Positions 2,711 to 15,865 of a stretch of DNA of 16,094 bases are shown here, in pieces (the stretch's first letter is position 1; each line of letters starts with the position of its first letter). Both the position numbers and the translations under genes were made by a program. Location: NCBI GenBank assembly GCA_024276815.1, contig JAJRWM010000151.1:1-16094 (forward strand), given 5' to 3'. The notes beneath the pieces are model-generated. The model ran no database searches. It had not been told where the DNA came from and worked only from the letters and a program-made list of their open reading frames with translations. Source of the stretch: a bacterium (GTDB lineage: Bacteria > JACRDZ01 > JAJRWM01).

Positions 2711-2800
2711 AATAAGCGTTCATCATACAATTCCGGAAATCGCAAGGGCAAAGGCGTATGCTGTCCTTTAATAAAATCGCTTGAAAGGAAGAAAGGATTT

Positions 2801-4468
2801 ATGAAAAAGATTCGGGCCTTGATATATCTTCTTTGCTTAATCGTTCTTGTGGTGTCACCGATTCGCGCTGATGAAATTCTGGAGATCAAAGTCCCCAACA
2901 CGAGTGTCATAGTTGATAAAGGGGAAATCGGAATTATCGGTGTGGTCAGCGATAACACCATAACGGAAGTAGACCTTTACGTTAATGAAACTTTTAAAGA
3001 AAAAGTTCCCGTTAACAGCGAGACGTTTTACAGCCTTTTGCAGTTGGAAGAAGGTCTGAATATGGTCCAGGTCACGACCAGCGGTCAGCAGTCCAATAAG
3101 GTTGAAATCTTTTACGAGACCGGCGACACTCAGGTACCTGCCGCTTATCGTAACTCTTTCAAGAATTACCATATGCATGAGACTCTGGCCGGGGTTGACC
3201 AGTGCGAGAGTTGCCATGATCTGGAGAGCGGGGACTTCCAGCGTTTGAGCCGGGGCGAAATCGAATGTTCAACCGAGGCCTGCCACGCGACCAAGAACTC
3301 GGATATGGCTGAATATGTTCACGGCCCGGTAGGCGCCGGCGCCTGTATCGCCTGCCATAACCCTCATGGTTCATTAAATCCTTATGAGCTGAATCTTACC
3401 GGAAGCCCGCTGTGCTACCGATGTCACACCGACAAAGAGATGGCATTCGCGCAGGATTTCATCCATGGTCCGGTGGGCGGCGGCGATTGTGTCGCTTGTC
3501 ATGACCCCCATGGTTCGGAGAACAAGTTCCAGCTTCGCGCTTTGGGCAGTCAGCTTTGTTTTATGTGTCATAAAAACAACAAGACTATCGGCAAGTTTGT
3601 GCACGGCCCGGTCGCGGCTAATGACTGTAACGTCTGCCATAATCCTCATGGTTCCGAGAACAAGTACCAGTTGGAACAACCGGGGGCCGACCTGTGTTTC
3701 ATGTGTCATGAGGCGAAAATGGAACTCATGACCAAGGAATATGTTCACAAACCGGTGAGCGAAGGCAAGTGTACCGCTTGTCACGATCCTCATAACGCTG
3801 ACTTCCAGTTTATGTTGCGCAAGCCCGTGCCGGACCTTTGTTATAGCTGTCATACGGATAAAAAAGAGAAGTTTGACGCCAAGTATCCTCATCCGCCGGT
3901 GAAGGAAGGCCGCTGTCCTGAATGCCATAATTCACACGCTTCGGATGTTAAGTTCCAGTTGCGGGAAGAAGGCTCCGCCCTTTGTTTCAGTTGTCATGAA
4001 AACAAGAAGGAAGAGTTTAACTCCAAAAAGTATCAGCATGGGCCGGTTATCCAGGGAGACTGTGTCGCCTGCCATAATCCTCATGGTTCCGAAAATCCTA
4101 AAATCCTGTGGAAATATTTTCCGTCGGAGTTTTATACGCCTTTCGCGGTTGAAAAATACGAGCTGTGTTTCGGTTGCCATCAGAAAACGCTGGTGCTGGA
4201 TAAATACACCTCAACCTTGACCGATTTCCGCCGGGGCAACCAGAACCTGCATTTCCTGCATGTCAACCGGGAAAAAGGGCGGACTTGCCGGGCCTGCCAT
4301 CAGGTGCACGCTTCCAACCAGGAAAAACACATCAGAAGCGAAGTGCCGTTCAGCAAGACCTGGATGTATCAGATCCGCTACACCAAGAAGGAGAACGGCG
4401 GACGTGGTGTGGTTGGTTGTCACAAGCCCCAGGAGTACAGCCGGGAACAAAGCGGCGGTGGTGATTGA
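2801..4468 (+). CDS. Exported 15-haem cytochrome c, Ig-like domain plus doubled-CXXCH repeats
   Basis: 555 residues from ATG 2801, chosen because AAGGAAGAAAGG precedes it and the signal peptide (MKKIRALIYLLCLIV..., cleaved near residue 23) starts there. The upstream in-frame extension to 2678 overlaps the promoter and looks non-coding. Residues 24-105 form a small Ig-like beta domain. From residue 135 there are 14 CXXCH motifs and one CX4CH (Cys156-His162). They alternate as CXXCHxxH (the xxH mostly NPHG or DPHG) and CXXCH, the Paired_CXXCH pattern; the xxH and HGPV histidines are likely distal haem ligands. Six units of 46-49 residues start at His174, 222, 268, 316, 364 and 413. A sixteenth motif at 535-541 has Arg where the first Cys would be. 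Role: periplasmic or outer-surface electron transfer in anaerobic respiration (inferred). First gene of a block; the next gene begins 2 nt after its stop. Confidence 0.93.
   Translation: MKKIRALIYLLCLIVLVVSPIRADEILEIKVPNTSVIVDKGEIGIIGVVSDNTITEVDLYVNETFKEKVPVNSETFYSLLQLEEGLNMVQVTTSGQQSNKVEIFYETGDTQVPAAYRNSFKNYHMHETLAGVDQCESCHDLESGDFQRLSRGEIECSTEACHATKNSDMAEYVHGPVGAGACIACHNPHGSLNPYELNLTGSPLCYRCHTDKEMAFAQDFIHGPVGGGDCVACHDPHGSENKFQLRALGSQLCFMCHKNNKTIGKFVHGPVAANDCNVCHNPHGSENKYQLEQPGADLCFMCHEAKMELMTKEYVHKPVSEGKCTACHDPHNADFQFMLRKPVPDLCYSCHTDKKEKFDAKYPHPPVKEGRCPECHNSHASDVKFQLREEGSALCFSCHENKKEEFNSKKYQHGPVIQGDCVACHNPHGSENPKILWKYFPSEFYTPFAVEKYELCFGCHQKTLVLDKYTSTLTDFRRGNQNLHFLHVNREKGRTCRACHQVHASNQEKHIRSEVPFSKTWMYQIRYTKKENGGRGVVGCHKPQEYSREQSGGGD
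3320..4180 (+). repeat. Coding tandem repeat: six diheme units of 46-49 residues
   Basis: Within the 15-haem protein, units starting at the His of H-x-P-V (residues 174, 222, 268, 316, 364, 413) follow one another at 48, 46, 48, 48 and 49 residues. Each contains CXXCH-xxH and, about 20 residues later, a second CXXCH preceded by a hydrophobic-Cys pair such as LCF; the last is stretched. The nucleotide copies share stretches such as CATAATCCTCATGGTTCCGA. This is protein-level duplication, not a CRISPR array. Confidence 0.8.
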
Positions 4469-4470
4469 TT

Positions 4471-5724
4471 ATGAAAGGGGAAAAGGGATTCGTTCTCTCC
4501 TTTGGCGGTAAAATACTGCCCCTGATCTTCGGGGCGGTGTTCACCGCGGCGGTCATCCATACACTTTACCTGCCGGCTCAGGCCCAGGCTTTCAAGCGGG
4601 TGAAAGAGGGGCAGAAAGCGCCGGCTTTCACCATGAAGACGCCTGAGGGCGTCCCGTTAAGCGTCAAGGATTACTCCGGTAAAATCCTGGTGGTCTGTTT
4701 CTGGAAGTTTGGCGATAAAAGTGAAGCGGAACTGGTCGTTCTCCAGCAAATTTATAACAAATATAAAGACAAGAACCTGGAAATCCTGGCCGTATATATT
4801 CCTGAAAGCGATGAAAACGTCGCTGACAAGGAAGTTGAGGCAATCAACAAGCTGTTTGTTGAAAAGGGGTTGCAATACACGGTTTTAATCGACGAAGGGA
4901 TGAAAGTCTTCAGCGAATATGGCGTTATCACCATGCCCAGCTTGGCTATTATCGATAAAGGAGGGAAGGTTGCCAGCATCTATTCCGGTTTCCCCCGGTT
5001 TGGCGGCGACAAAAAAGTCTCGGAGTTGGTGGAAAGCGCTCTGGGGATAGCCAAAAAGGTTGTCAGGAAGAAGAAAAAAGGTTACCGGCAGAAAGGCCGG
5101 GCCGGTTTCCATTATAAATTTGGTCTGAGATTTTACCGGTTGGGCTTTATGAAGAAAGCGGAAGACAAGTTGAAAGCGGCGTTGCTCGCTGATCCTGATT
5201 ATCCCGCCGCCCATTTGTTGCTGGCCAAGGTATACGTGGAGCAAAAGAAAAAAGACGACGCCATGCTCGAATATAATCTGGCAATTGCCGCGGATGAGAA
5301 GAATCTTGATTTGCATATCGAGTACGGTAAATTCGCTATCGCGAACGGTATGTATGATGAAGCGTTGGCGGAGTTTGAGATGGTGAAGAAGTTAAAGCCG
5401 GCTTCGGGAGCAGGTGATTTCGGCCTGGGGCAGCTTTATCTGGCGCAAGGGAAAAACGAAGAAGCTCTGAAGTATTTTCAGGCCGCTATTAATACCTATA
5501 CCGGAAAAGGCGGCGCAAAAAAAGCCAGTATTTTTGATTTGCGCAAGCGAAGTAAAGCCCGGAAGGGCAACCCCGATTTGGGGCCGGCCTATTACGGGTT
5601 GGCGCAGGCCCAGCTTAGGCTGAACAAAAAAGATGAGGCGATCGTTAGTTTCCAGGAAGCGATTAAAAGCTATCAAAAAGCTATTGATAAAATAAAGAAA
5701 GATGTCAGTACAGAGGAAGATTGA
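4471..5724 (+). CDS. Exported thioredoxin-fold (AhpC/TSA-like) protein with C-terminal TPRs, redox cysteines absent
   Basis: 417 residues from ATG 4471; a TTG two codons earlier overlaps the upstream stop and is less likely. Residues 1-40 are a signal peptide or anchor (hydrophobic to LPAQAQA). Residues 43-190 follow the TlpA/AhpC-TSA fold: GQKAPAFTMKTPEG, then KILVVCFWKFG, the ITMPS cis-proline loop (about residue 156) and a closing SELVESALG helix. The active site that normally reads WCxxC is FWKFGDKSEAE, with no CxxC or peroxidatic Cys; the only nearby Cys (76) is in the beta-strand before the site. A Lys/Arg-rich linker (about 196-210) leads to TPR helices (about 211-415; e.g. AHLLLAKVYVEQKKKDDAMLEY). 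It lies between two cytochrome genes (2 nt and 4 nt gaps), so it is probably translationally coupled. I infer a non-catalytic scaffold or assembly partner for the cytochromes; direct evidence is lacking. Confidence 0.88.
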   Translation: MKGEKGFVLSFGGKILPLIFGAVFTAAVIHTLYLPAQAQAFKRVKEGQKAPAFTMKTPEGVPLSVKDYSGKILVVCFWKFGDKSEAELVVLQQIYNKYKDKNLEILAVYIPESDENVADKEVEAINKLFVEKGLQYTVLIDEGMKVFSEYGVITMPSLAIIDKGGKVASIYSGFPRFGGDKKVSELVESALGIAKKVVRKKKKGYRQKGRAGFHYKFGLRFYRLGFMKKAEDKLKAALLADPDYPAAHLLLAKVYVEQKKKDDAMLEYNLAIAADEKNLDLHIEYGKFAIANGMYDEALAEFEMVKKLKPASGAGDFGLGQLYLAQGKNEEALKYFQAAINTYTGKGGAKKASIFDLRKRSKARKGNPDLGPAYYGLAQAQLRLNKKDEAIVSFQEAIKSYQKAIDKIKKDVSTEED

Positions 5725-5728
5725 GGTT

Positions 5729-6457
5729 ATGAAGTATTTGGTTGTTGCAGTTGGTTGCGCGTTGTTGTTTTGCAGTGTTATGGTTAACGCTCAAAAGAAG
5801 AAAATTTCTGTGAGCCCACCCGATAAGAGCTTGGTAAGTGAAGCTGAGGTGCTAGTCATGGTTGGTGGGGAAGATGTGAATCAGGATAGTGTTGATATCA
5901 AGCTCAATAACGTCGATTTGCGCGATAAAGTTCGTTATCTGGGCAGCATGGCTTACGTCGCGCTGACCTTAAACAAAGGGGAAAACCGTTTGCTTGTTAT
6001 GAACAATGGGCAAGTCGAGAAACAGTTGACTTACCTTTTCCAGGAGAATGAGCCGCCGCCGAAAGGCTATACCAGGTTTATCTTTCATGACGCTTTCCTG
6101 AACAGTGGTTGCGGGGACTGTCATGATCTGGAGATGAAACCGTTTGATTACAAGAATATCGTTTACTCTGAGGAAGCGATCAGTTTATGTCTCGAATGTC
6201 ATGATGACCGCTTGCAGGCCAAATATATTCATGGCCCGGTTGGGGCCGGCATCTGTACGCCGTGTCACGATCCGCATGGTAATGAGCGGCAGTTTCTTTT
6301 GACCAGAAAAGGCAACAGCTTGTGCGAAATCTGCCACGAAAAAGAACGGATTCAGAAACACTTGACGAAATTGCAGGAGACTAAAGCGGGGTCATCCACA
6401 AGTTGTCTGGATTGTCATGACCCACACGGCACGGAGAAAAAGTTCCATCTGAAATAG
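5729..6457 (+). CDS. Exported 5-haem cytochrome c, Ig-like domain plus doubled-CXXCH
   Basis: 242 residues from ATG 5729 (GAGG just upstream; the in-frame ATG at 5702 lies inside the preceding gene and would spoil the signal peptide). Signal peptide about residues 1-21, then an Ig-like domain (25-105) equivalent to that of the 15-haem protein. Haem motifs: CGDCH 128-132, CLECH 154-158, CTPCH 176-180 with DPHG, CEICH 199-203, CLDCH 226-230 with DPHG. Two full diheme pairs are followed by a lone CXXCHxxH, and the protein stops 12 residues after it (FHLK, TAG), where its paralogue continues to the partner motif. It is therefore either a short natural form or a C-terminally truncated one. Role as periplasmic electron carrier is inferred. 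It sits 4 nt after the redoxin-TPR gene. Confidence 0.92.
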   Translation: MKYLVVAVGCALLFCSVMVNAQKKKISVSPPDKSLVSEAEVLVMVGGEDVNQDSVDIKLNNVDLRDKVRYLGSMAYVALTLNKGENRLLVMNNGQVEKQLTYLFQENEPPPKGYTRFIFHDAFLNSGCGDCHDLEMKPFDYKNIVYSEEAISLCLECHDDRLQAKYIHGPVGAGICTPCHDPHGNERQFLLTRKGNSLCEICHEKERIQKHLTKLQETKAGSSTSCLDCHDPHGTEKKFHLK

Positions 6458-6574
6458 GCCAGGTTTCGCCGGTTTGCCGTCCGCCGTTCAGATGAAAACA
6501 GCAAGGTTGTATCTTGGCGGCATAATGAATTGTGCCTTATCTCTACGGGATAGCATTAGTTGTTTGGGCGATAG

Positions 6575-6715
6575 ATGATGAAAACGCGGTATAAGCGCTG
6601 TATCTCTTTTTGGTTTTTGCTCAATTTTGCCGTTTTTACGCTTGGCTCTTATCAATACTGTTCCGCTGGTGAGAAAAAGCAGTTAGAGCGGAGCGTTGAG
6701 ACTTTGGCCGGGTAG
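6575..6715 (+). pseudogene. Detached signal-peptide portion of the 10-haem cytochrome, ended by in-frame TAG
   Basis: ATGATG at 6575-6580 opens a 46-codon frame encoding a clear signal peptide (basic MMKTRYKRC, hydrophobic FWFLLNFAVFTLG, likely cleavage after CSA) followed by a charged linker. TAG at 6713-6715 ends it. The same frame continues without another stop for 21 codons to ATG 6779 and on through the haem-binding frame to 7957. The two pieces together give exactly the plan of the two paralogues upstream (signal, linker, Ig-like, haems), so this is the true N-terminus. Cause unknown: nonsense mutation, readthrough, or a sequence error. Confidence 0.75.
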
Positions 6716-6778
6716 GATTCAGGCAATCAAGCCGGGGAAGTCCCGGCCGAGACGTATCCGCCGGATGTTGTCCGTAAA

Positions 6779-7957
6779 ATGAGCTTTTTGACGACCGGCG
6801 ATGGCCTCAAGATATTAACTCCTTTTAATTACGCCTTGGTAAAAACACCTGACCTGACAATCATCGGCTCTGTCAAGGATTCGGAAACGGACAGCGTTAC
6901 TCTCAGGTTGAACGGCGAGCTGTTAACCTTTCTTCCCGAAAACAAAATTTTTCACGCTGTCGTTCATCTGAAAGAAGGAGAGAACGCGGTTGTTCTGCCT
7001 GGCGGTATGGTGCAGAATATTTATTATCAGGCTAAAACCCAGAAGATTCACCGGCCGCCCGAAGATAGCAAAATACCGGGAAAATATCTCGAATACCAGT
7101 TTCATTCAAACCTGCCTCAACCGGAGTGTCTGTCCTGCCATAAATTAGGCCCTGAGGTCGCCGGTCTGCCCGATTGCTACGAAAAATGCCACACCCGGGT
7201 CTTTAACAGGAGCTGGGGACACGGTCCTACCGGGGAATTCCGTTGCCTGGCCTGCCATGATCCTTTTGGCGACCAGACCGGTTACAGCATGATTTTAACC
7301 GGCAAGGAGCTTTGTTTCTCTTGTCACTCAACGATGGTGCCGACGAAGCCTTTTGTGCATGGCGCTGTCAAGCAGGGGCTATGTTTGGGTTGCCATGACC
7401 CGCACAGCACCGATTACAAGAAAGTGTTGCGTTACGATGATCAGAAGCTTTGTTATACCTGTCATGAGATAAAAACCCGCCCGCAGCAGTATCGTCACGG
7501 CAAGAAGCTGTTTGAGGGGGATAATTTCGAGGAATACGAGTTCCCGCATCCTCCGGTTGTGGATGGGCAGTGTCTTTATTGTCATGAACCGCATGAATCA
7601 AACTATAAGGCCAATCTGAAAAAAGCCCCCACTATTCTCTGTACCAACTATGATTGTCACGGGACGCTTAAAGGCAGTCCGATCGACGGTAAAATGGCCG
7701 GTCACATGCATCCCTTCGACAAAGACCCCAAATTATCTATCATGGCCAAGGTGCCCAAGGAGATCAAGCTGGATGAAAATCAGAGAGTTGTCTGCTATAG
7801 CTGTCATACTCCTCATGGCAGTAACCGGGACAGTTTTTTGATTGAGGATATCGGCCAGCGCAAACGGGGGGAAAAGCTTTGCGGTAAATGTCATCCGCCC
7901 GTTGATACTCTTGGTGGCGGCGAGATTAATCTGAGTATTGAGAGGGAAGATAAGTGA
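6779..7957 (+). CDS. 10-haem cytochrome c, Ig-like domain plus doubled-CXXCH (mature part; signal peptide lies upstream of an amber codon)
   Basis: 392 residues from the first ATG after the amber codon; this ATG has no ribosome site and no signal peptide, so it is unlikely to be a natural start for a protein that needs periplasmic haem attachment. Residues 9-85 form the Ig-like domain. Haem motifs: CLSCH 117, CYEKCH 133 (CX3CH), CLACH 156, CFSCH 179, CLGCH 202, CYTCH 225, CLYCH 265, CTNYDCH 288 (CX4CH), CYSCH 339, CGKCH 368. They fall into five pairs. In the second pair the usual DPH is DPF (Phe163), so one presumed distal ligand is missing. The frame is otherwise intact over 392 codons with all motifs kept, which argues for recent or conditional loss rather than old decay. 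Ends in TGA. Its gap from the 5-haem gene (117 nt to ATG 6575) holds no obvious promoter. Confidence 0.85.
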   Translation: MSFLTTGDGLKILTPFNYALVKTPDLTIIGSVKDSETDSVTLRLNGELLTFLPENKIFHAVVHLKEGENAVVLPGGMVQNIYYQAKTQKIHRPPEDSKIPGKYLEYQFHSNLPQPECLSCHKLGPEVAGLPDCYEKCHTRVFNRSWGHGPTGEFRCLACHDPFGDQTGYSMILTGKELCFSCHSTMVPTKPFVHGAVKQGLCLGCHDPHSTDYKKVLRYDDQKLCYTCHEIKTRPQQYRHGKKLFEGDNFEEYEFPHPPVVDGQCLYCHEPHESNYKANLKKAPTILCTNYDCHGTLKGSPIDGKMAGHMHPFDKDPKLSIMAKVPKEIKLDENQRVVCYSCHTPHGSNRDSFLIEDIGQRKRGEKLCGKCHPPVDTLGGGEINLSIEREDK

Positions 7958-8054
7958 GAAGGTGATAAAAGTTCGCGGGGATAAGGATAATTTTAATACG
8001 GGCTGAAAAATTAGTGGTGTCACAACAAGTTACGATAAGCATCGAAATTTTTTC

Positions 8055-8083
8055 TTGACATAAGGGTTAGGCGCAGTTAAAAT
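8055..8083 (+). promoter_or_regulatory. Sigma70-type promoter for the TM-protein / NHL genes
   Basis: TTGACA at 8055-8060, a 17-nt spacer, and TAAAAT at 8078-8083 (5 of 6). The start near 8090 leaves a leader of about 34 nt before ATG 8124. This marks a new transcription unit after the first cytochrome block. Confidence 0.7.
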
Positions 8084-8123
8084 CTAAGGTACTGTTCTTA
8101 AACCCTCTAAGGAGAGAGTCTAC

Positions 8124-8597
8124 ATGAAAGAACGCATGTTAAAAGGCAGTAAGAAAAAATCGCCGATCGCGGCGGCGGTTGCCTCCGCTATCCTCCCTGG
8201 CGCCGGTCAGGCCTATAACCGGGAAGTGATGCGGGCAATTATTCTGATTATCCTTTCCTTATCCCTGGTTGGCTGGGGCTTGTCTCTTCAGTATACTTAT
8301 CTGGAAAATTTAAAAAGAATCATTGATTTGGGCATAGGCAAAGATATCGCCCGGCTGTATGCCGAAGCGCAGAGCACGTCCAGGCTTATTCCGGTTATCT
8401 TATATGTGGCGCTGGTTGTTTTTAGCGTGTATGACGCTTACGCTTTCGCCGCCTATATTGTGCGGAATATTGCTGTTGAGGTTGAGAAAGAGGAGTTTAA
8501 TCTGCCGCCGAAGGCGGAGCGACCGGTCGAGGGGACATCGCCGGCGTCGTCTTCCGCCGGGGGAGCGGATGATACACAGGGGAAAACGGCTGAATGA
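8124..8597 (+). CDS. Small two-TM membrane protein with ILPGAGQAYNR motif (DUF5683-like)
   Basis: 157 residues; AAGGAG lies 9 nt before the ATG. After a lysine-rich start (KGSKKKS) comes SAILPGAGQAYNRE (residues 21-34), a hallmark of small DUF5683/TM2-type membrane proteins, where a re-entrant or amphipathic helix precedes two membrane spans. The spans here are about residues 37-57 and 88-113, separated by a 30-residue loop. The C-terminal 40 residues are acidic, then Pro/Ser/Gly-rich and probably disordered. Function of this family is not established. It is the first gene behind the promoter at 8055 and is followed 25 nt later by the NHL gene, so it likely acts with exported neighbours. Family assignment rests on the short motif only. 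Confidence 0.8.
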   Translation: MKERMLKGSKKKSPIAAAVASAILPGAGQAYNREVMRAIILIILSLSLVGWGLSLQYTYLENLKRIIDLGIGKDIARLYAEAQSTSRLIPVILYVALVVFSVYDAYAFAAYIVRNIAVEVEKEEFNLPPKAERPVEGTSPASSSAGGADDTQGKTAE

Positions 8598-8622
8598 CAT
8601 TAGCGAGAAAAAGGGAGGTTTT

Positions 8623-9648
8623 ATGAGATTTAAATTTTCAGCAATTATCGGGGTTTTATTGATAGCCAGCGTCGCTTCCACAGGTTGGTCGCAGACGCCC
8701 AAGTTTGTATCCCGTCCCACCGAGGATGAGTTCCATCTTTATGGTTTGAATGGTCCGGTTGACGTGGAAGTCGATTCTGACGGCATGATCTATGTCTCGG
8801 AAGCGACCGCTTTCCAGGTGCGGATATTCCGCCCTGACGGTACGCCTGAACTGACCTTTGGCCATCGGGTCAAGAAATATAGCGAGGATGATCCGACCGG
8901 CTTCGTCGGTTTTAAGGGAATCGGTCTGGACAAGGATAACAATATTTATGTGGCCGAGAAAAAAGGCGGTCGGGTGCGGGTCTTTAACAGTTTTGGCGAA
9001 CCGTTGCTCACGATGACCCTGCCTAAGTATCTGGCTGTTATCTATGACGACGCCGGCAATCCTATCTATAACGTTCTGGAACCCGTCGAGAAGCAGAAGT
9101 TGCCGGGCAAGAAAAGATACGATCCCGGTGCGCCTGTTGATGTCGCTGTCAGCGCTAACGGCAATATCTATGTCGGCGACGGCGGCGGTGAGAGGATCTG
9201 TGTCTTTGACTATGAAGGCAATCTTTTAACCACTTTTGATTTTGTGCGGGTCAATAATATCATGACCCATATCCGGACGCCGAACAACATCGCTTTCAGC
9301 AGCAAAGGTGAGCTGTTCATCGCCGAGGCTCTGCCCTGCTATATAGTGGTGACGGATGCCAAGGGCAATTACTTGCGTTATTTCGGCAAGCCGGGTAACA
9401 TCGTTGGTTCCTTTCAGCGTTTGACGGGGATGACGATTGACGATCTGGATCGTGTTTACGCCGCTGACTTTGTTATCGGTTCGGTGCAGGTCTTTGATGA
9501 TCAGGGCAACTTTCTGCATGTGCTCACCGGTAAGGGCGGCGAGCAGTGGAAAGTCGGCAACCTGATGGGGCTGGCGGTTGATCCCAAGCGGATCTATCTG
9601 AGCGAGGCGCTCAGCAACCAGGTGGCTGTCCGTAAGTTTGTCAAATAG
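8623..9648 (+). CDS. Exported NHL-repeat beta-propeller protein
   Basis: 341 residues from ATG 8623, preceded by GGGAGG with a 4-nt gap; the longer in-frame extension upstream overlaps the previous gene and is arginine-rich noise. Signal peptide about residues 1-23 (MRFKFSAIIGVLLIASVAS). Six NHL-type blades can be traced, at about 44-80, 97-128, 170-200, 219-255, 265-300 and 311-341. Each has a GPVDVEVDSDGMIYVSE-like strand pair followed by an I/V-x-V-F-x-x-x-G turn. A 35-residue insertion (133-168) separates blades 2 and 3. No catalytic motif is apparent; NHL propellers mostly bind proteins or other ligands. NHL proteins are commonly encoded next to multihaem cytochromes in metal reducers, and here the 14-haem gene follows. 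A scaffold or maturation role is inferred. Confidence 0.9.
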   Translation: MRFKFSAIIGVLLIASVASTGWSQTPKFVSRPTEDEFHLYGLNGPVDVEVDSDGMIYVSEATAFQVRIFRPDGTPELTFGHRVKKYSEDDPTGFVGFKGIGLDKDNNIYVAEKKGGRVRVFNSFGEPLLTMTLPKYLAVIYDDAGNPIYNVLEPVEKQKLPGKKRYDPGAPVDVAVSANGNIYVGDGGGERICVFDYEGNLLTTFDFVRVNNIMTHIRTPNNIAFSSKGELFIAEALPCYIVVTDAKGNYLRYFGKPGNIVGSFQRLTGMTIDDLDRVYAADFVIGSVQVFDDQGNFLHVLTGKGGEQWKVGNLMGLAVDPKRIYLSEALSNQVAVRKFVK

Positions 9649-9660
9649 GGGTTGCTGGCA

Positions 9661-9690
9661 TTTAACGATCTTACCCGGGTTAAAGTTTTT
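9661..9690 (+). terminator. Weak terminator-like stem after the NHL gene
   Basis: TTTAAC (9661-9666) pairs with GTTAAA (9679-9684) around a loop containing CCCGGG, and is followed by GTTTTT. The AT-rich 6-bp stem is weak, so it may only partly stop transcription into the 14-haem gene. Confidence 0.3.
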
Positions 9691-9872
9691 CGTGCCGGGG
9701 CAGCAGGCGTAGACAACAACGTCGATAGATATCGGCGCGGCAGATAGATGCTGAAGGGTGGAAGGTGTAGGGGGTCTGCTTTTTTCGGAGATCTGTTCCA
9801 CGAGCGTTTCTTCAGCTGAGTCTAAAAAGGGTTCCCAAGGGGTTTTGTTTTTGTCTTACATATGAACGTTCT

Positions 9873-9913
9873 AGCGTGATACGCTTTCCCATCCCTATCG
9901 GCGTACGGATGGG
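9873..9913 (+). repeat. Two adjoining hairpins in the 14-haem leader
   Basis: AGCGT-GAT-ACGCT at 9873-9885 is directly followed by CCCATCC (9888-9894) and GGATGGG (9907-9913) around a 12-nt loop. Two stems two bases apart upstream of a highly structured start region suggest a folded RNA element. This could be a regulatory leader or an mRNA stabiliser; neither is shown. Confidence 0.4.
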
Positions 9914-9963
9914 GAGGCTTGGATCATAGACGTCAGGGAAAGGAGGAGGTGAAAAAGGTTTTG

Positions 9964-9986
9964 GAAAAGAGGCAGGCTCTCTTTTC
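9964..9986 (+). repeat. Perfect 8-bp hairpin just upstream of the 14-haem ribosome site
   Basis: GAAAAGAG (9964-9971) and CTCTTTTC (9979-9986) form a perfect stem with loop GCAGGCT, 7 nt before AAAGGAGG. It is close enough to affect ribosome access, and could alternatively mark an attenuator, since TTTTCATATTTT follows. It lies inside the short leader frame ending at 10017. Confidence 0.45.
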
Positions 9987-10013
9987 ATATTTTAAAGGAG
10001 GTAGAAAGTTTAA

Positions 10014-12818
10014 GTGAAGAAAATTTTAGTTTTAACCCTAAGCTTGATTTTTGTGCTGGCGTTAGCTTTGCCGGTAAGCGCGGGAGTTAGAAACACCATC
10101 CACGATTTCCAGTCCAACGCGACCCAGGGTGGTTTCGGCAGTGGTACAGCCCAGAGAGGTATGTGTTCCTATTGTCACATTCATCACAGTTCCAAGGGTG
10201 ACCGCTTATGGCCGACTCCTGGTGACAGTTCCGTAAGAGTTGCTGGTCTGGTTGGTGTTCTGTGCGCCTCATGTCACGTTGCCGTTATTACCAATATTCA
10301 CTCCCCGGCAACTAGTCATGATGATGTTGACCGTACCGCCGACATTTACAACACGAGCCTTGTTAACCACGTGTTGATTGACGACGGAGTGTACGCTAAC
10401 AACACCAATCAAAACTATTTCGGTGCTGGCGTCGCGGCTCAGTTTAACCAGCAGAACGTTTGGCCCTATTGCGGTACCCAGGGCACTTCTGGTTCGCCGG
10501 TCCAGATCGAATGTTCGTCCTGCCACAACCCGCACGATGATTCCAAGGGACAAAGTGCTGAGACCACGGAAGCCAACAGCAGGTTGGGTTATGGTAACGA
10601 CTTCCTGCGCGCCGAAATGTACAACAATGGTAATGGTGTCGCCTTCTGTGAATACTGCCACGAAGAGAAAACCCGTTCAGGCGCCGCTGGCAACACCATA
10701 GGCACAGGTACTCACCCGGTCGGCACAACGGCTAACGCCGGTGATCTTGCCCAGGCTGACATCCATATTGAAAGCGCGGAACGCGCTACCCTGCAAGCAG
10801 CGGGTAACATCGTTTCCAGTGTCTTCTATGATATGGGTATTGGTACGGGTAATGGTAGTGCTCTTGCTGATGCCGGTCCCGGTACTCACCTGACCAGTTA
10901 TGATACTGGTGGCGTTACCTGCCAAACCTGTCACAAGGTTCACGGCGCCGCCGCCGGCGCTGGCGATACCTGGGATGTCTCAGGGTCCACCGGTTCCTAT
11001 CTGGGTTCCGCTGATCCTGTTTATCTGGCGGCCAGTGATGATGGTTACGCCAATATCCTGGCGATTGAAAACGACGCCAACGGTGGTACGGTTGGTTATA
11101 CTTACCTGACTGAAGGCCGCGCTACTGGCGACTATAACGATCTTTGCATCGATTGTCATGAAACGACTCCTTCGGTTGGTAAAAACTGGCTGAACATGGG
11201 CGAAGCCGGCGACAAAATTAACCCTGACGGTGCCGGTATCGCTTCTTCTGATGCTGTTGACGCTCACCCGGTCAATATCGCTCCTAACGGCGTTTCCGAA
11301 GTCGGTTTCGCTTTGACCGTTAAGGATCCGGGCTGGAACACAACCAACAGTAACTGGACCGACGCCCGTTGGGCTGGTAACGCCGGCACAGCCAGAGATT
11401 TCGCTTTCGTCGGCACACCTCGCTGGTATGGCGCTGGTGAAACTGTTGGCGCTAACGGCGCCAGGACAGAAATTGTTTGTCTGACCTGTCACGCGCTTCA
11501 TGACGGTGAAAACGGCACGCCTATGTTGAGAGCTAACAGCCTGACTTACTGTAACGACTGCCATACCAATTCAATTGGTCTCGTGTCGCACCCGGTTGGT
11601 CCCGGTTCAGCCATGGCTGACAATCCTGACGGCGCGACCTGGCCAAATGGCGATGTTTTGCCGTTGGCTAATTATTATCAGGGTTCAGGTGGAACCACCT
11701 CGTTCAACCACACTCCTGCTGACGCCAACCTTGAAGACATGGCCTGCTTTACCTGTCATGCCGCTCATGATGGTGTCGATGGTTTCATGCTGAGAGTGAA
11801 AGACGACAACTCCCGAATTTGTGTTGGTTGTCACACTGACTTTGTCGCGACAACCGGTAATGTCTCACAACGGGAAAACCCGTCCAATTACATTGCCGAA
11901 TACGCTGAATCCCCAACCGCGCGTCTGGGTTCTCACTACACCGGCACGATTAGCGATTCACAAGCTAACTCGGCCTACGGTGAAACGCGTTGGGCGTTCA
12001 GTGGCGCCTGGACAGACACCATCTCCGGTCCAGCTACCGCTCAAACCAGTCACTGGGCTGGCGGCGGCAGTTACTCCAGAATTCAGTGTCAGTCTTGTCA
12101 TACGCCTCATAACGCAGCCAGCGGTTTGGCTGAAGCCAACACCTATGACGGCACGACATCACCGGTTGACTGGGATAACACAGTTGAAGATGGCAGTAAT
12201 GGCTATGATATGTCAGCCAACTACGACGCTGCCGATCCGGCCAATACCAAGATGTGCGCAACGCCTACTTCAGCTTTGCTGTTAGGCAACAACGTTGATT
12301 CCAAGATCTGCGCAACCTGTCACTGGCCTTCAGGTACCCACGTAACCACGATCTTCACCGTACCCGCCAATCCCGATCCCAAGCGGGTCGCAGGTTCGGG
12401 AATCAGGAGATATCGTGATTACTGTACCAGAACCGGCGCGTTCATCGTATCCGTTCTGAATCAAACTTCCGAGCAGGCATACGATGTCTATGATCTCCTC
12501 GCGAGCGATACGTCGCAGGATAACGCGGAAGCCGATTCTTCATGGTTCGGTACAGGCGAGAGCAAGGCTACTCCGGAATCACCATGTAGCTTCCCGCCGT
12601 TCTTCCCGGGTATTGAGCCACAAGCCGGCGAAACCCAGGCTCATATGGTTTGTGACAGCTGTCACTCGCCTCACGCCGCGGCTACCGGTCCTGGCGCTTT
12701 CATTCTGGAAAGCGGTGCAGGGGATGCTGATGGTTCAGCTGCAAACAACCTGAAAGCTAATCAACGGGTAGCATCTCGTGATTACGCTTACCTTTGCTGG
12801 AGATGTCACGATAAATAA
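10014..12818 (+). CDS. Large exported 14-haem cytochrome c built of seven diheme units
   Basis: 934 residues. GTG 10014 is forced because TAA precedes it in frame; AAAGGAGG lies 12 nt upstream, rather far. Signal peptide residues 1-23 (MKKILVLTLSLIFVLALALPVSA). Fourteen CXXCH motifs start at residues 51, 84, 167, 212, 303, 378, 489, 513, 578, 603, 692, 767, 880 and 928. They alternate strictly between CXXCHxxH (HIHH, HNPH, HKVH, HALH, HAAH, HTPH, HSPH) and plain CXXCH, giving seven units with 24-75 residues between partners; HPVG/HPVN follows several second motifs. The protein is rich in Gly, Ala, Ser, Thr, Asn and Asp, poor in Lys, and sparse in haem (about 67 residues each). Together these suggest a surface or extracellular cytochrome, possibly wire-forming (inference). 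It ends three residues after the last Cys. Four extra Cys (153, 748, 804, 858) could form disulfides. Strong hairpins follow the stop. Confidence 0.95.
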   Translation: MKKILVLTLSLIFVLALALPVSAGVRNTIHDFQSNATQGGFGSGTAQRGMCSYCHIHHSSKGDRLWPTPGDSSVRVAGLVGVLCASCHVAVITNIHSPATSHDDVDRTADIYNTSLVNHVLIDDGVYANNTNQNYFGAGVAAQFNQQNVWPYCGTQGTSGSPVQIECSSCHNPHDDSKGQSAETTEANSRLGYGNDFLRAEMYNNGNGVAFCEYCHEEKTRSGAAGNTIGTGTHPVGTTANAGDLAQADIHIESAERATLQAAGNIVSSVFYDMGIGTGNGSALADAGPGTHLTSYDTGGVTCQTCHKVHGAAAGAGDTWDVSGSTGSYLGSADPVYLAASDDGYANILAIENDANGGTVGYTYLTEGRATGDYNDLCIDCHETTPSVGKNWLNMGEAGDKINPDGAGIASSDAVDAHPVNIAPNGVSEVGFALTVKDPGWNTTNSNWTDARWAGNAGTARDFAFVGTPRWYGAGETVGANGARTEIVCLTCHALHDGENGTPMLRANSLTYCNDCHTNSIGLVSHPVGPGSAMADNPDGATWPNGDVLPLANYYQGSGGTTSFNHTPADANLEDMACFTCHAAHDGVDGFMLRVKDDNSRICVGCHTDFVATTGNVSQRENPSNYIAEYAESPTARLGSHYTGTISDSQANSAYGETRWAFSGAWTDTISGPATAQTSHWAGGGSYSRIQCQSCHTPHNAASGLAEANTYDGTTSPVDWDNTVEDGSNGYDMSANYDAADPANTKMCATPTSALLLGNNVDSKICATCHWPSGTHVTTIFTVPANPDPKRVAGSGIRRYRDYCTRTGAFIVSVLNQTSEQAYDVYDLLASDTSQDNAEADSSWFGTGESKATPESPCSFPPFFPGIEPQAGETQAHMVCDSCHSPHAAATGPGAFILESGAGDADGSAANNLKANQRVASRDYAYLCWRCHDK

Positions 12819-12848
12819 GAGATTTGCGTCTCTTGTTTGTTGATTTTT
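12817..12848 (+). terminator. Rho-independent terminator of the 14-haem gene
   Basis: AAGAGA (12817-12822, overlapping the TAA stop) pairs with TCTCTT (12829-12834) across TTTGCG, followed by the T-rich tail GTTTGTTGATTTTT. The stem is short, but stem plus tail has the classic form. Confidence 0.55.
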
Positions 12849-12858
12849 AGCACTGCGA

Positions 12859-12888
12859 CAAGTGGCTGGTTCGCCGACCAGTCACTTG
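12859..12888 (+). terminator. Second hairpin downstream of the 14-haem gene
   Basis: CAAGTG-G-CTGGT (12859-12870) pairs with ACCAG-T-CACTTG (12877-12888) as a 12-bp stem with one G-T pair and loop TCGCCG. The tail GTTTCAAAATA is not a proper U-tract, so it may serve 3'-end stability as much as termination. Confidence 0.5.
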
Positions 12889-12897
12889 GTTTCAAAA

Positions 12898-12931
12898 TAG
12901 GGCGCCAAGCCGTCACTGGCTTGGCGCCCTA
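12898..12931. terminator. Perfect 14-bp GC-rich hairpin
   Basis: TAGGGCGCCAAGCC (12898-12911) and its exact complement (12918-12931) flank the loop GTCACT. There is no U-tract on either side. Possible roles: backup terminator, RNA-stabilising 3' end, or a mobile palindromic element. Loop bases GTCACT recur in the right arm of the preceding hairpin. Confidence 0.45.
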
Positions 12932-13124
12932 ATGTTACCTCGCGCCAGGAAAATAAAAGGACGGAGCCGGGGACAGATAAATACTTGTTAAACAGAATCT
13001 GGCGGCGAGGCTGAGCGAGGCAACATCAACAGCTTGCTTCGTTTGCGCCCGCGGCGGCGGCTGTCGTCCGCTTGATTAATAACCGCTATAAAAGCCGGTT
13101 CACTTGGAATATTAGGAGATTTGC

Positions 13125-14816
13125 ATGAAAAAGGACACTATTTCGATAGGAATAATAATTACCCTGCTTTTCGTCTACGTTTCTCTGAACGTATTCGCGC
13201 AATCATTTTCCGGCGGATTACTATTGGATACTGAAAAAAGGAAAGTCGTAAAACAAGAAATGGTGCCTAATATTCACCTGCAATTGGGCTGTGAAACCTG
13301 TCATATCGAAGTTCCCAAGGATGGTTTGGCCTCCAAAACCAAGCCGGCGATCTTAACACCTAATAACGATCTTATCGCTCTTTGCAACACCTGTCATGAG
13401 GGCGCGAATCTGCATCCCACCAACATGGATCCCAGTAAGGCCGATCCGCCGATGAAAATACCCGCTATTTTCCCTATTCCCAAGGAAGGCGCCAACAAGG
13501 GAGTCGTCACCTGTGTTACCTGTCATTATTTACATTCCGAGAGCGGCGGCCAGAAACTGCTTCGCGGTCTGCCCCTGATGCCGGGGGACCCCCGGGCCAA
13601 GTTCACTAACCGTATGGAGATGTGCCGGGCCTGTCACGGCAAGACCCTGGCCAGGAAGAGTCCGCATAAGCAGGATAACGAGGAGTCCTGTTCCTTCTGC
13701 CACGCGACTGATCCCAATGAAGCCGAGAATATTGAGGATACCATCAGGGGGAATGTCGTGCAGCTTTGTAACTTCTGCCACGCCAAGTTAAGCGGCGCGC
13801 ATTTTCTTAAATATAATCCTTTCTCTGATGAGGCGCTAAAAGAAGATATTAAAAACACTGACCTGGTTCTGGTCAGAGGTAAATATACCTGCGTAACCTG
13901 TCACGATCAGCACGGGGAATCAAACCAAAAACACTATTTGCGGGAAGAATTCGTTAACCTGGCGGTTAAGTCAAAACGTATTAACCCTCATTTTACGGAA
14001 GTTTTTTGCCTCTCCTGTCACGATCGTATCATCAGCGAGGGTGAGAAGCCCACCTTTAAATTCCCGACCATAAATGAGGTCTGCAATAATTGTCACGCCA
14101 CCAAAGAAGCTCGCGGGCAGATCCATCCGGTGGGCATCAAGCCTCCCGAGGCGAAAGACGTGAAAAGATACAAGTTGACCCGGGTTCCGCTGGACCAGTT
14201 CCCCTTAAACAAAAAGGGTGAGATTGATTGCGAGACCTGTCACCAAAGAGAATGCAAGCAGGATCCCAAGGTAACCGGGCGTATCTTTTTAAGGGGCGGC
14301 CCTTATAAAAAGAGGAACGATGTTTGTTTTAAATGTCACATCAAAGAGGAATTCCAGAAGCTGAATCCGCATAAGGATTCGTATAAGAAAATCAATGGCA
14401 AGGTTGTCATTAATCAGAAGAATTGTGTTTTTTGCCATACAACCGTGCCCACAAAACAGGTTGAGGGAATGGAAGAGGTGGAGGATATGCAGTTCAAGGG
14501 CGATATCGTGTTCCTTTGCATCAGGTGCCATCCTGAAAGCAACCATCCCGGCACAGACATCAAGACCGGTTTGGGAGTGGATCACCTGTTGATAATGCCG
14601 GTTAATGGCAACGATGCCAAGAAGGTAAGGCCGTTGTCAGAAATTGATACCGATGTTTTACCGCTGGACCCGTCCGGACGCATTACCTGCAGCACTTGCC
14701 ATATGCCGCATGAACCAGGTTTGATCGAAGGCGTGCGGGGTAAAATTGGCGGGCAACAGATTCAACGGCTGGATATAAGGCAGGGGCAATTGTGTGACGC
14801 CTGTCATTCTTGGTAG
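13125..14816 (+). CDS. Exported 15-haem cytochrome c with duplicated seven-haem module
   Basis: 563 residues; AGGAG lies 8 nt before ATG 13125. Signal peptide residues 1-25 (ends LNVFA). Fifteen CXXCH motifs start at residues 56, 87, 130, 167, 189, 215, 256, 295, 320, 369, 401, 434, 465, 522 and 557. There is no Ig-like domain and the strict alternation of the other four cytochromes is absent, so this is a different subfamily. Residues 75-300 and 310-563 align motif by motif (seven haems each) after an N-terminal single haem. It is lysine-rich, unlike the 14-haem protein, and thus more like a periplasmic or outer-membrane-associated partner. The last motif ends two residues from the C-terminus (CDACHSW, then TAG). 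The TPR lipoprotein gene follows after 29 nt. Electron transfer is certain in kind; its partners are inferred. Confidence 0.94.
   Translation: MKKDTISIGIIITLLFVYVSLNVFAQSFSGGLLLDTEKRKVVKQEMVPNIHLQLGCETCHIEVPKDGLASKTKPAILTPNNDLIALCNTCHEGANLHPTNMDPSKADPPMKIPAIFPIPKEGANKGVVTCVTCHYLHSESGGQKLLRGLPLMPGDPRAKFTNRMEMCRACHGKTLARKSPHKQDNEESCSFCHATDPNEAENIEDTIRGNVVQLCNFCHAKLSGAHFLKYNPFSDEALKEDIKNTDLVLVRGKYTCVTCHDQHGESNQKHYLREEFVNLAVKSKRINPHFTEVFCLSCHDRIISEGEKPTFKFPTINEVCNNCHATKEARGQIHPVGIKPPEAKDVKRYKLTRVPLDQFPLNKKGEIDCETCHQRECKQDPKVTGRIFLRGGPYKKRNDVCFKCHIKEEFQKLNPHKDSYKKINGKVVINQKNCVFCHTTVPTKQVEGMEEVEDMQFKGDIVFLCIRCHPESNHPGTDIKTGLGVDHLLIMPVNGNDAKKVRPLSEIDTDVLPLDPSGRITCSTCHMPHEPGLIEGVRGKIGGQQIQRLDIRQGQLCDACHSW
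13347..14813 (+). repeat. Coding tandem duplication of a seven-haem module
   Basis: The first copy spans residues 75-300, the second 310-563. Matching anchors are LCNTCH/VCNNCH; PIPKEGANKGVVTCVTCH / PLNKKGEIDCETCH; LLRGLP/FLRGGP; MCRACH/VCFKCH; SPHKQD/NPHKDS; CSFCHATDP/CVFCHTTVP; RGNVVQLCNFCH / KGDIVFLCIRCH; LVRGKYTCVTCH / LDPSGRITCSTCH; and CLSCHD/CDACHSW. Divergence at nucleotide level is high, so the duplication is old. Confidence 0.8.
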
Positions 14817-14845
14817 ATAAAATCAAAAAAGGAGTAATTTGTTTT

Positions 14846-15865
14846 ATGAAGTGGGGAAAAGCGTTAACCTTGACAGTTATTTTAAGCCTTGTTTTAAGTG
14901 GCTGTATGCCGCAAAAAAGGGCGCCGGAAGAGGATAATCCCAGCCCGGCCCAAAAAGCTTCGAACGTGAAATTCGATAGCTTGTCTACCGAGCAGAAACT
15001 CGAATACAATGAGATCATCAGCAACGCTATGCAGCTTTATTTGTGGGCGAAATACGATGACGCGATCGAGGAGTTTAAAAAAGCCGGGAAAATAGCGGAA
15101 ACGCCGGAGGTCTACTTTAATATAGCGACAATTTACGCTAATCGGGGGGACGCGCCGAAAGCGTTCATTAATTTCTACAAGGTATATCAGATGGATCCTG
15201 ATTATGATTTTGGTGTTGAATACGCCCGGGGGTTTGCTCTCGGTTTGTATAGTAATCAACTGTACGAGGACGCGATCAAGTGGTGCGACATCGCTATCAA
15301 GAAATATTACAGCAATGGCGAGCCGGGTATCGAATACCTGGTGAGGACCAAAGCGCTCTCTCAGCGGGATTTGTTTCATTTTGATGAAGCTATAAAGATA
15401 GCGGAGGACTACCTTAAGAAATATCCCGATAGTGGTGATTTGGCCAAGGAAGTGCAAGCCATGCTTGATTTCCTGAAGAACAACCGGGATGATACCGATG
15501 AACCGTTAATTCTGTACGCCAAGACCAGAAATTACCGGCAGCCGGATGAAAAGATAGAGAAGTTTAGTGAAATCCTGGAAAAATATCCGGAAACGAAACT
15601 GAAGGATGAAATTATTTACCAGATTGCCCAGCTATATGGCAGCGACTGGAAGTTATTCGGTTTGCAGGATTTTGAAAAGCAGATTGAATACTTAGAAAAA
15701 CTAATTAAGGAATGTCCCGATTCCCCGTATGTAATGGACGCTCAAAAAAGGATCCAGACGATCAATTACCGTATGGGTACTATCGATGAAAAACCAAGGG
15801 ATGATTCCTGGTATAAGAATCACCGGAAAGCCCCTCTTCCCGGTTCAGACGCCGCCGGGCACTAG
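14846..15865 (+). CDS. TPR-containing lipoprotein
   Basis: 339 residues from ATG 14846; AAAAAAGGAG lies 11 nt upstream. The frame could extend back to TTG 14810, but that would put extra residues ahead of a normal lipoprotein signal. Residues 1-20 end in the lipobox VLSGC (Cys20), so it should be lipid-anchored. From about residue 50 there are TPR-like helical pairs (AMQLYLWAKYDDAIEEFKKA, VYFNIATIYANRGDAPKAF, ALSQRDLFHFDEAIKIAEDYLKKYP). A later part has the YPETKLKDEIIYQIAQLY and CPDSPYVMDAQKRI pattern of BamD/YbgF-type outer-membrane TPR lipoproteins. It follows the 15-haem gene by 29 nt and is probably co-transcribed with it. I infer a scaffold that holds or helps assemble the cytochrome at a membrane; a general envelope role is the alternative. 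Confidence 0.88.
   Translation: MKWGKALTLTVILSLVLSGCMPQKRAPEEDNPSPAQKASNVKFDSLSTEQKLEYNEIISNAMQLYLWAKYDDAIEEFKKAGKIAETPEVYFNIATIYANRGDAPKAFINFYKVYQMDPDYDFGVEYARGFALGLYSNQLYEDAIKWCDIAIKKYYSNGEPGIEYLVRTKALSQRDLFHFDEAIKIAEDYLKKYPDSGDLAKEVQAMLDFLKNNRDDTDEPLILYAKTRNYRQPDEKIEKFSEILEKYPETKLKDEIIYQIAQLYGSDWKLFGLQDFEKQIEYLEKLIKECPDSPYVMDAQKRIQTINYRMGTIDEKPRDDSWYKNHRKAPLPGSDAAGH

Follow-up and report, generated by a model that had tools for sequence, protein, structure and literature searches.

The TAG codon at positions 6713–6715 of the 16,094-nucleotide stretch analysed here (the window) interrupts a cytochrome gene, and it is probably a single-base G-to-T error in the draft consensus; the gene itself would then be continuous, and the organism would have a sense codon at this site. 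We favour this explanation because lone stops of all three kinds occur in unrelated genes of the same genome, essential ones among them, and because the decoding machinery of that genome is ordinary. The initial annotation had kept three options, and the genome now weighs them differently: it favours a base-call or consensus error and leaves readthrough without support, with a recent nonsense mutation as a possible reading.

A cytochrome gene interrupted by one codon

The gene occupies 6575–7957 and lies downstream of two paralogues and a conserved neighbour. The features of this part of the window are as follows.

2798–4468, + strand: upstream paralogue with 14 CXXCH motifs, signal peptide unbroken
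4465–5724, + strand: thioredoxin-fold (AhpC/TSA) and TPR protein, a conserved neighbour
5702–6457, + strand: paralogue with 5 CXXCH motifs, signal peptide unbroken
6575–6712, + strand: N-terminal piece of 46 codons, comprising a Sec signal peptide (MMKTRYKR..CSA/GEKK; judged from sequence) and the first part of the linker
6713–6715, + strand: in-frame TAG, a probable consensus error and possibly a real nonsense mutation (from the reading of the frame and the genome-wide pattern)
6716–6778, + strand: linker of 21 codons, the same frame open, without a start codon
6779–7957, + strand: ten-haem cytochrome, with an N-terminal domain that has no haem motifs followed by a doubled-CXXCH region (PF09699, E=3.8e-37)

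The arrangement described in the initial annotation holds throughout. From ATG 6575 the frame is open for 46 codons that encode a clear Sec signal peptide, read MMKTRYKRCISFWFLLNFAVFTLGSYQYCSAGEKKQLERSVETLAG, and the TAG at 6713–6715 ends this stretch with the frame unchanged beyond it. The 21 codons from the TAG to ATG 6779 are followed by 392 more, the last of which lies at 7952–7954 with its stop at 7955–7957. The claimed ten haem motifs are present in the product of 6779–7957 as eight CXXCH, one CX3CH, and one CX4CH, and the product matches the doubled-CXXCH family PF09699 in four stretches. An export signal on the same polypeptide would let haem be added outside the cytoplasm; as sequenced, this signal is in frame with the haem domain but severed from it by the TAG. 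The two upstream paralogues show the unbroken plan ascribed to them, with an uninterrupted signal peptide in both the 14-CXXCH and the 5-CXXCH gene.

We identified four orthologues in three genomes of the same phylum, with 30–35% identity, and in all four of them the export signal and the haem domain are joined, the frame running unbroken from the signal peptide into the haem region. The comparison of this codon with relatives, which had been proposed earlier, finds no stop here in any of these distant proteins. Conservation is poor in the linker that contains this codon, and with relatives that are 30–35% identical the original residue cannot be deduced from them; a search for close relatives among the contigs of the comparison genomes found none. 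The interrupted frame is more than a chance reading, given that the stop is followed by a 392-codon continuation belonging to a recognised family, and that the signal peptide and the haem domain share one uninterrupted frame in the four orthologues. Judged by the orthologues and their gene neighbourhood, the pair of pieces at 6575–7957 is probably one secreted ten-haem cytochrome in a conserved cluster.

Translation of the second piece as a separate cistron from ATG 6779 was also considered and rejected. No Shine-Dalgarno sequence is visible upstream of 6779, in agreement with the claim that this ATG has no ribosome site, and the protein would have no signal peptide. From the TAG to 6779, there is no in-frame ATG, GTG, or TTG.

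A neighbourhood in another genome of the phylum (G003, locus L070) holds the same kinds of gene, namely a many-haem cytochrome, a thioredoxin-TPR protein, a shorter cytochrome, and the ten-haem gene, together with an NHL protein, cytochromes of about 950 and about 560 residues, and a TPR protein. A cluster of large multihaem cytochromes with thioredoxin-TPR, NHL, and TPR proteins is common to two families of the phylum (window 2798–15865 and L070 1–17417). Its role is probably electron transfer, and it is possibly an extracellular electron-transfer system.

Lone premature stops across the draft genome

The draft genome to which the window belongs, as contig C77, comprises 246 contigs and 2.39 Mb and is 91% complete. 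We surveyed 1.26 Mb of this genome (loci L076–L208, or 53% of the draft, containing 1038 long ORFs) for in-frame stops that have coding sequence on both sides and at least 50 upstream codons. A first broad scan gave 202 candidates, many of them natural gene ends; these were tightened to 98, and a selection of them was checked by homology. Within this sample, the checks confirmed 28 more lone in-frame stops in genes that are otherwise intact, with intact sequence flanking each stop. Eight were verified by PDB alignments across the stop (cysS, clpC, rplA, cheA, uvrB, a PilB/GspE ATPase gene, ptsI, and pyrH), and the other 20 by Pfam, either through domains that extend across the stop (17) or through the domain order of a known protein (3: tig, clpX, and rpsA). 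The Pfam-verified set also includes murF, glnA, plsX, nuoG, ilvB, and asnB. The only cysS in the genome above the family cut-off is the one with the stop, and a cell could not survive truncation of all these genes, among them cysS, rplA, rpsA, and nuoG.

The 28 stops comprise 18 TAA, 9 TAG, and 1 TGA, which indicates that the effect is not amber-specific. At least 28 of the 1038 long ORFs in the sampled genome (2.7%) have a lone stop, a rate that is a lower bound, as the requirement for 50 upstream codons would miss the target cytochrome itself, which has 46. At the genome rate, 0.36 lone stops are expected per 16-kb window, and the probability of at least one is 0.30. The cytochrome stop is what the genome background predicts.

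Some stretches show more than one stop. A putative SbcC-like ATPase gene (L117) has two separate in-frame stops, a TGA and a TAG, at 7341–7343 and 7818–7820. At another locus of the window's genome (L093, G000:C5), ferritin-like segments lie head-to-tail with single in-frame stops between them (about 1422, 1917, and 2439), and these may be natural tandem genes.

In other genomes, 2 of 238 cysS, uvrB, and rplA genes above the family cut-offs have an internal stop (0.8%); in the window's genome, there is one internal stop in each of the three families. These control families were picked because they are broken in the window's genome, and the fair comparison is therefore 0.8% elsewhere versus at least 2.7% here. 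The stops of this genome are thus scattered through unrelated indispensable genes and are rare in the same genes elsewhere, the distribution expected of consensus-error stops. The two control exceptions are both rplA genes (G085:C10:70279-70950 and G029:C108:36271-36945), one with an internal TAA and the other with an internal TGA.

The survey also bears on whether the TAG is a real and recent nonsense mutation in the strain, such that the cytochrome lacks its signal peptide or is not made at all and the gene is starting to decay. A single stop in a gene whose remainder is intact is what such a mutation would leave, and the cytochrome is one of a redundant set, with 22 related matches in the window's genome, so that its loss would not be lethal. 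The same lone stops, however, are found in essential genes, where they are impossible together as real mutations, and one cause covers both; we therefore regard a real mutation in the cytochrome as unlikely, although it is the strongest of the rival readings. The comparison with recent nonsense pseudogenes is similar, in that these too have a single in-frame stop and intact flanks, but pseudogene formation would not strike dozens of genes of one genome together, many of them essential. We infer that the premature stops are assembly errors and not mutations. Claims of gene absence, truncation, gene loss, or recoding that are drawn from this draft genome are unsafe without the reads, with at least 2.7% of long ORFs affected.

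Substitution type at the stops

The residue replaced by the stop is glutamate at the four sites where the aligned structures agree: cysS, uvrB, ptsI, and nuoG (for nuoG, in five of five alignments). The change implied at these glutamate stops is GAR to TAR, a substitution of G to T. The ilvB stop falls at a position that is aspartate in the alignment, and at the clpC stop, a site established as the Walker B glutamate, the aligned structures have alanine. The rplA, cheA, pilB, and pyrH stops lie in variable or differing columns that are uninformative on substitution type. Given the codon use of the genome, glutamate codons would contribute 18% of new stops under uniform substitution versus 58% under G>T/C>A. 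As read from these alignments, the stop pattern points to G>T.

C>A/G>T changes are the leading artefact class of guanine/DNA oxidation in DNA preparation (PMC6337315). Guanine oxidised in the DNA sample or library has probably given rise to the G>T change, which low read depth would have fixed in the consensus, and the original codon at 6713–6715 would probably have been one for glutamate. The present case resembles these oxidised-guanine artefacts (PMC6337315) in the inferred G>T change and in stops that are lone and scattered over all kinds of gene; it is unlike them in that such artefacts are usually rare and outvoted by depth, whereas fixation in the consensus here needs low coverage.

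Decoding machinery

The 1038 long ORFs of the 1.26-Mb sample end in TAA (468), TGA (339), or TAG (231), and RF1 is present and intact, which sustains the earlier view that wholesale recoding of TAG is unlikely. RF2 is present as well (prfB, G000:C149:395-1435), with one internal TGA. The programmed frameshift of RF2 is well known, and a single TGA in prfB is expected. A loss of release factors was rejected, as RF1 is intact and the single TGA of RF2 is the expected one.

The genome was searched in full for tRNAs with Rfam and with ARAGORN, which gave 33, and in this incomplete draft set there is no CUA, UUA, or UCA anticodon; the suppressor tRNA for which a search had been suggested is thus not found among them. 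The draft genome has one tRNA-Glu only, and BLAST with it gave no second. The pyrrolysine genes had likewise been put forward as a check, and neither PylS nor the selenocysteine tRNA has a match over the cut-off in the window's genome.

These results weigh on programmed or leaky readthrough of the TAG, by which the amount of cytochrome would be kept low or switchable. In its favour are a frame that stays open before and after the TAG and ten intact haem motifs, yet we consider it very improbable. In addition to the lack of a suppressor tRNA among the 33 of the incomplete set, the absence of a PylS match over the cut-off, and the intact RF1, the RNA downstream of 6713–6715 folds no more strongly than its shuffles (z −0.92) and offers no stimulatory structure. 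Furthermore, the stop is not conserved, being absent in four of four orthologues, and premature TAA and TAG codons are also found in unrelated genes. Pyrrolysine decoding of UAG is alike in having a TAG in frame, but is unlike the present case, where PylS is without such a match and TAA interruptions outnumber TAG. An odd codon can mimic regulation if it is read in isolation, even where the remainder of the assembly identifies it as noise.

Even more improbable, in our assessment, is a genome-wide dual use of UAA and UAG, in which both end genes and are yet rarely decoded as glutamate at chosen sites, those in essential genes and in the cytochrome included. Such a code would agree with the finding that UAR accounts for 27 of the 28 verified premature stops, and with glutamate at the clearly conserved positions. 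Blastocrithidia provides a known parallel, in which UAR encodes glutamate, UAA is also a stop, and the reassignment extends over the entire genome (PMC12153298); here too, UAR is found at glutamate positions and at gene ends. The scale is very different, however. Of the 298,412 codons of the sampled genes, about 19,700 (6.6%) are GAR, against 27 in-frame UAR; UAR thus makes up about 0.14% of glutamate codons, much too little for a reassigned code. Nor did the searches give a tRNA to match, the incomplete draft set having one tRNA-Glu and no UUA or CUA anticodon. Both release factors are present, and UAR ends 699 of the 1038 long ORFs. A separate observation concerns RF2: a prfB match in G001 has TAA where the prfB of the window's genome has TGA.
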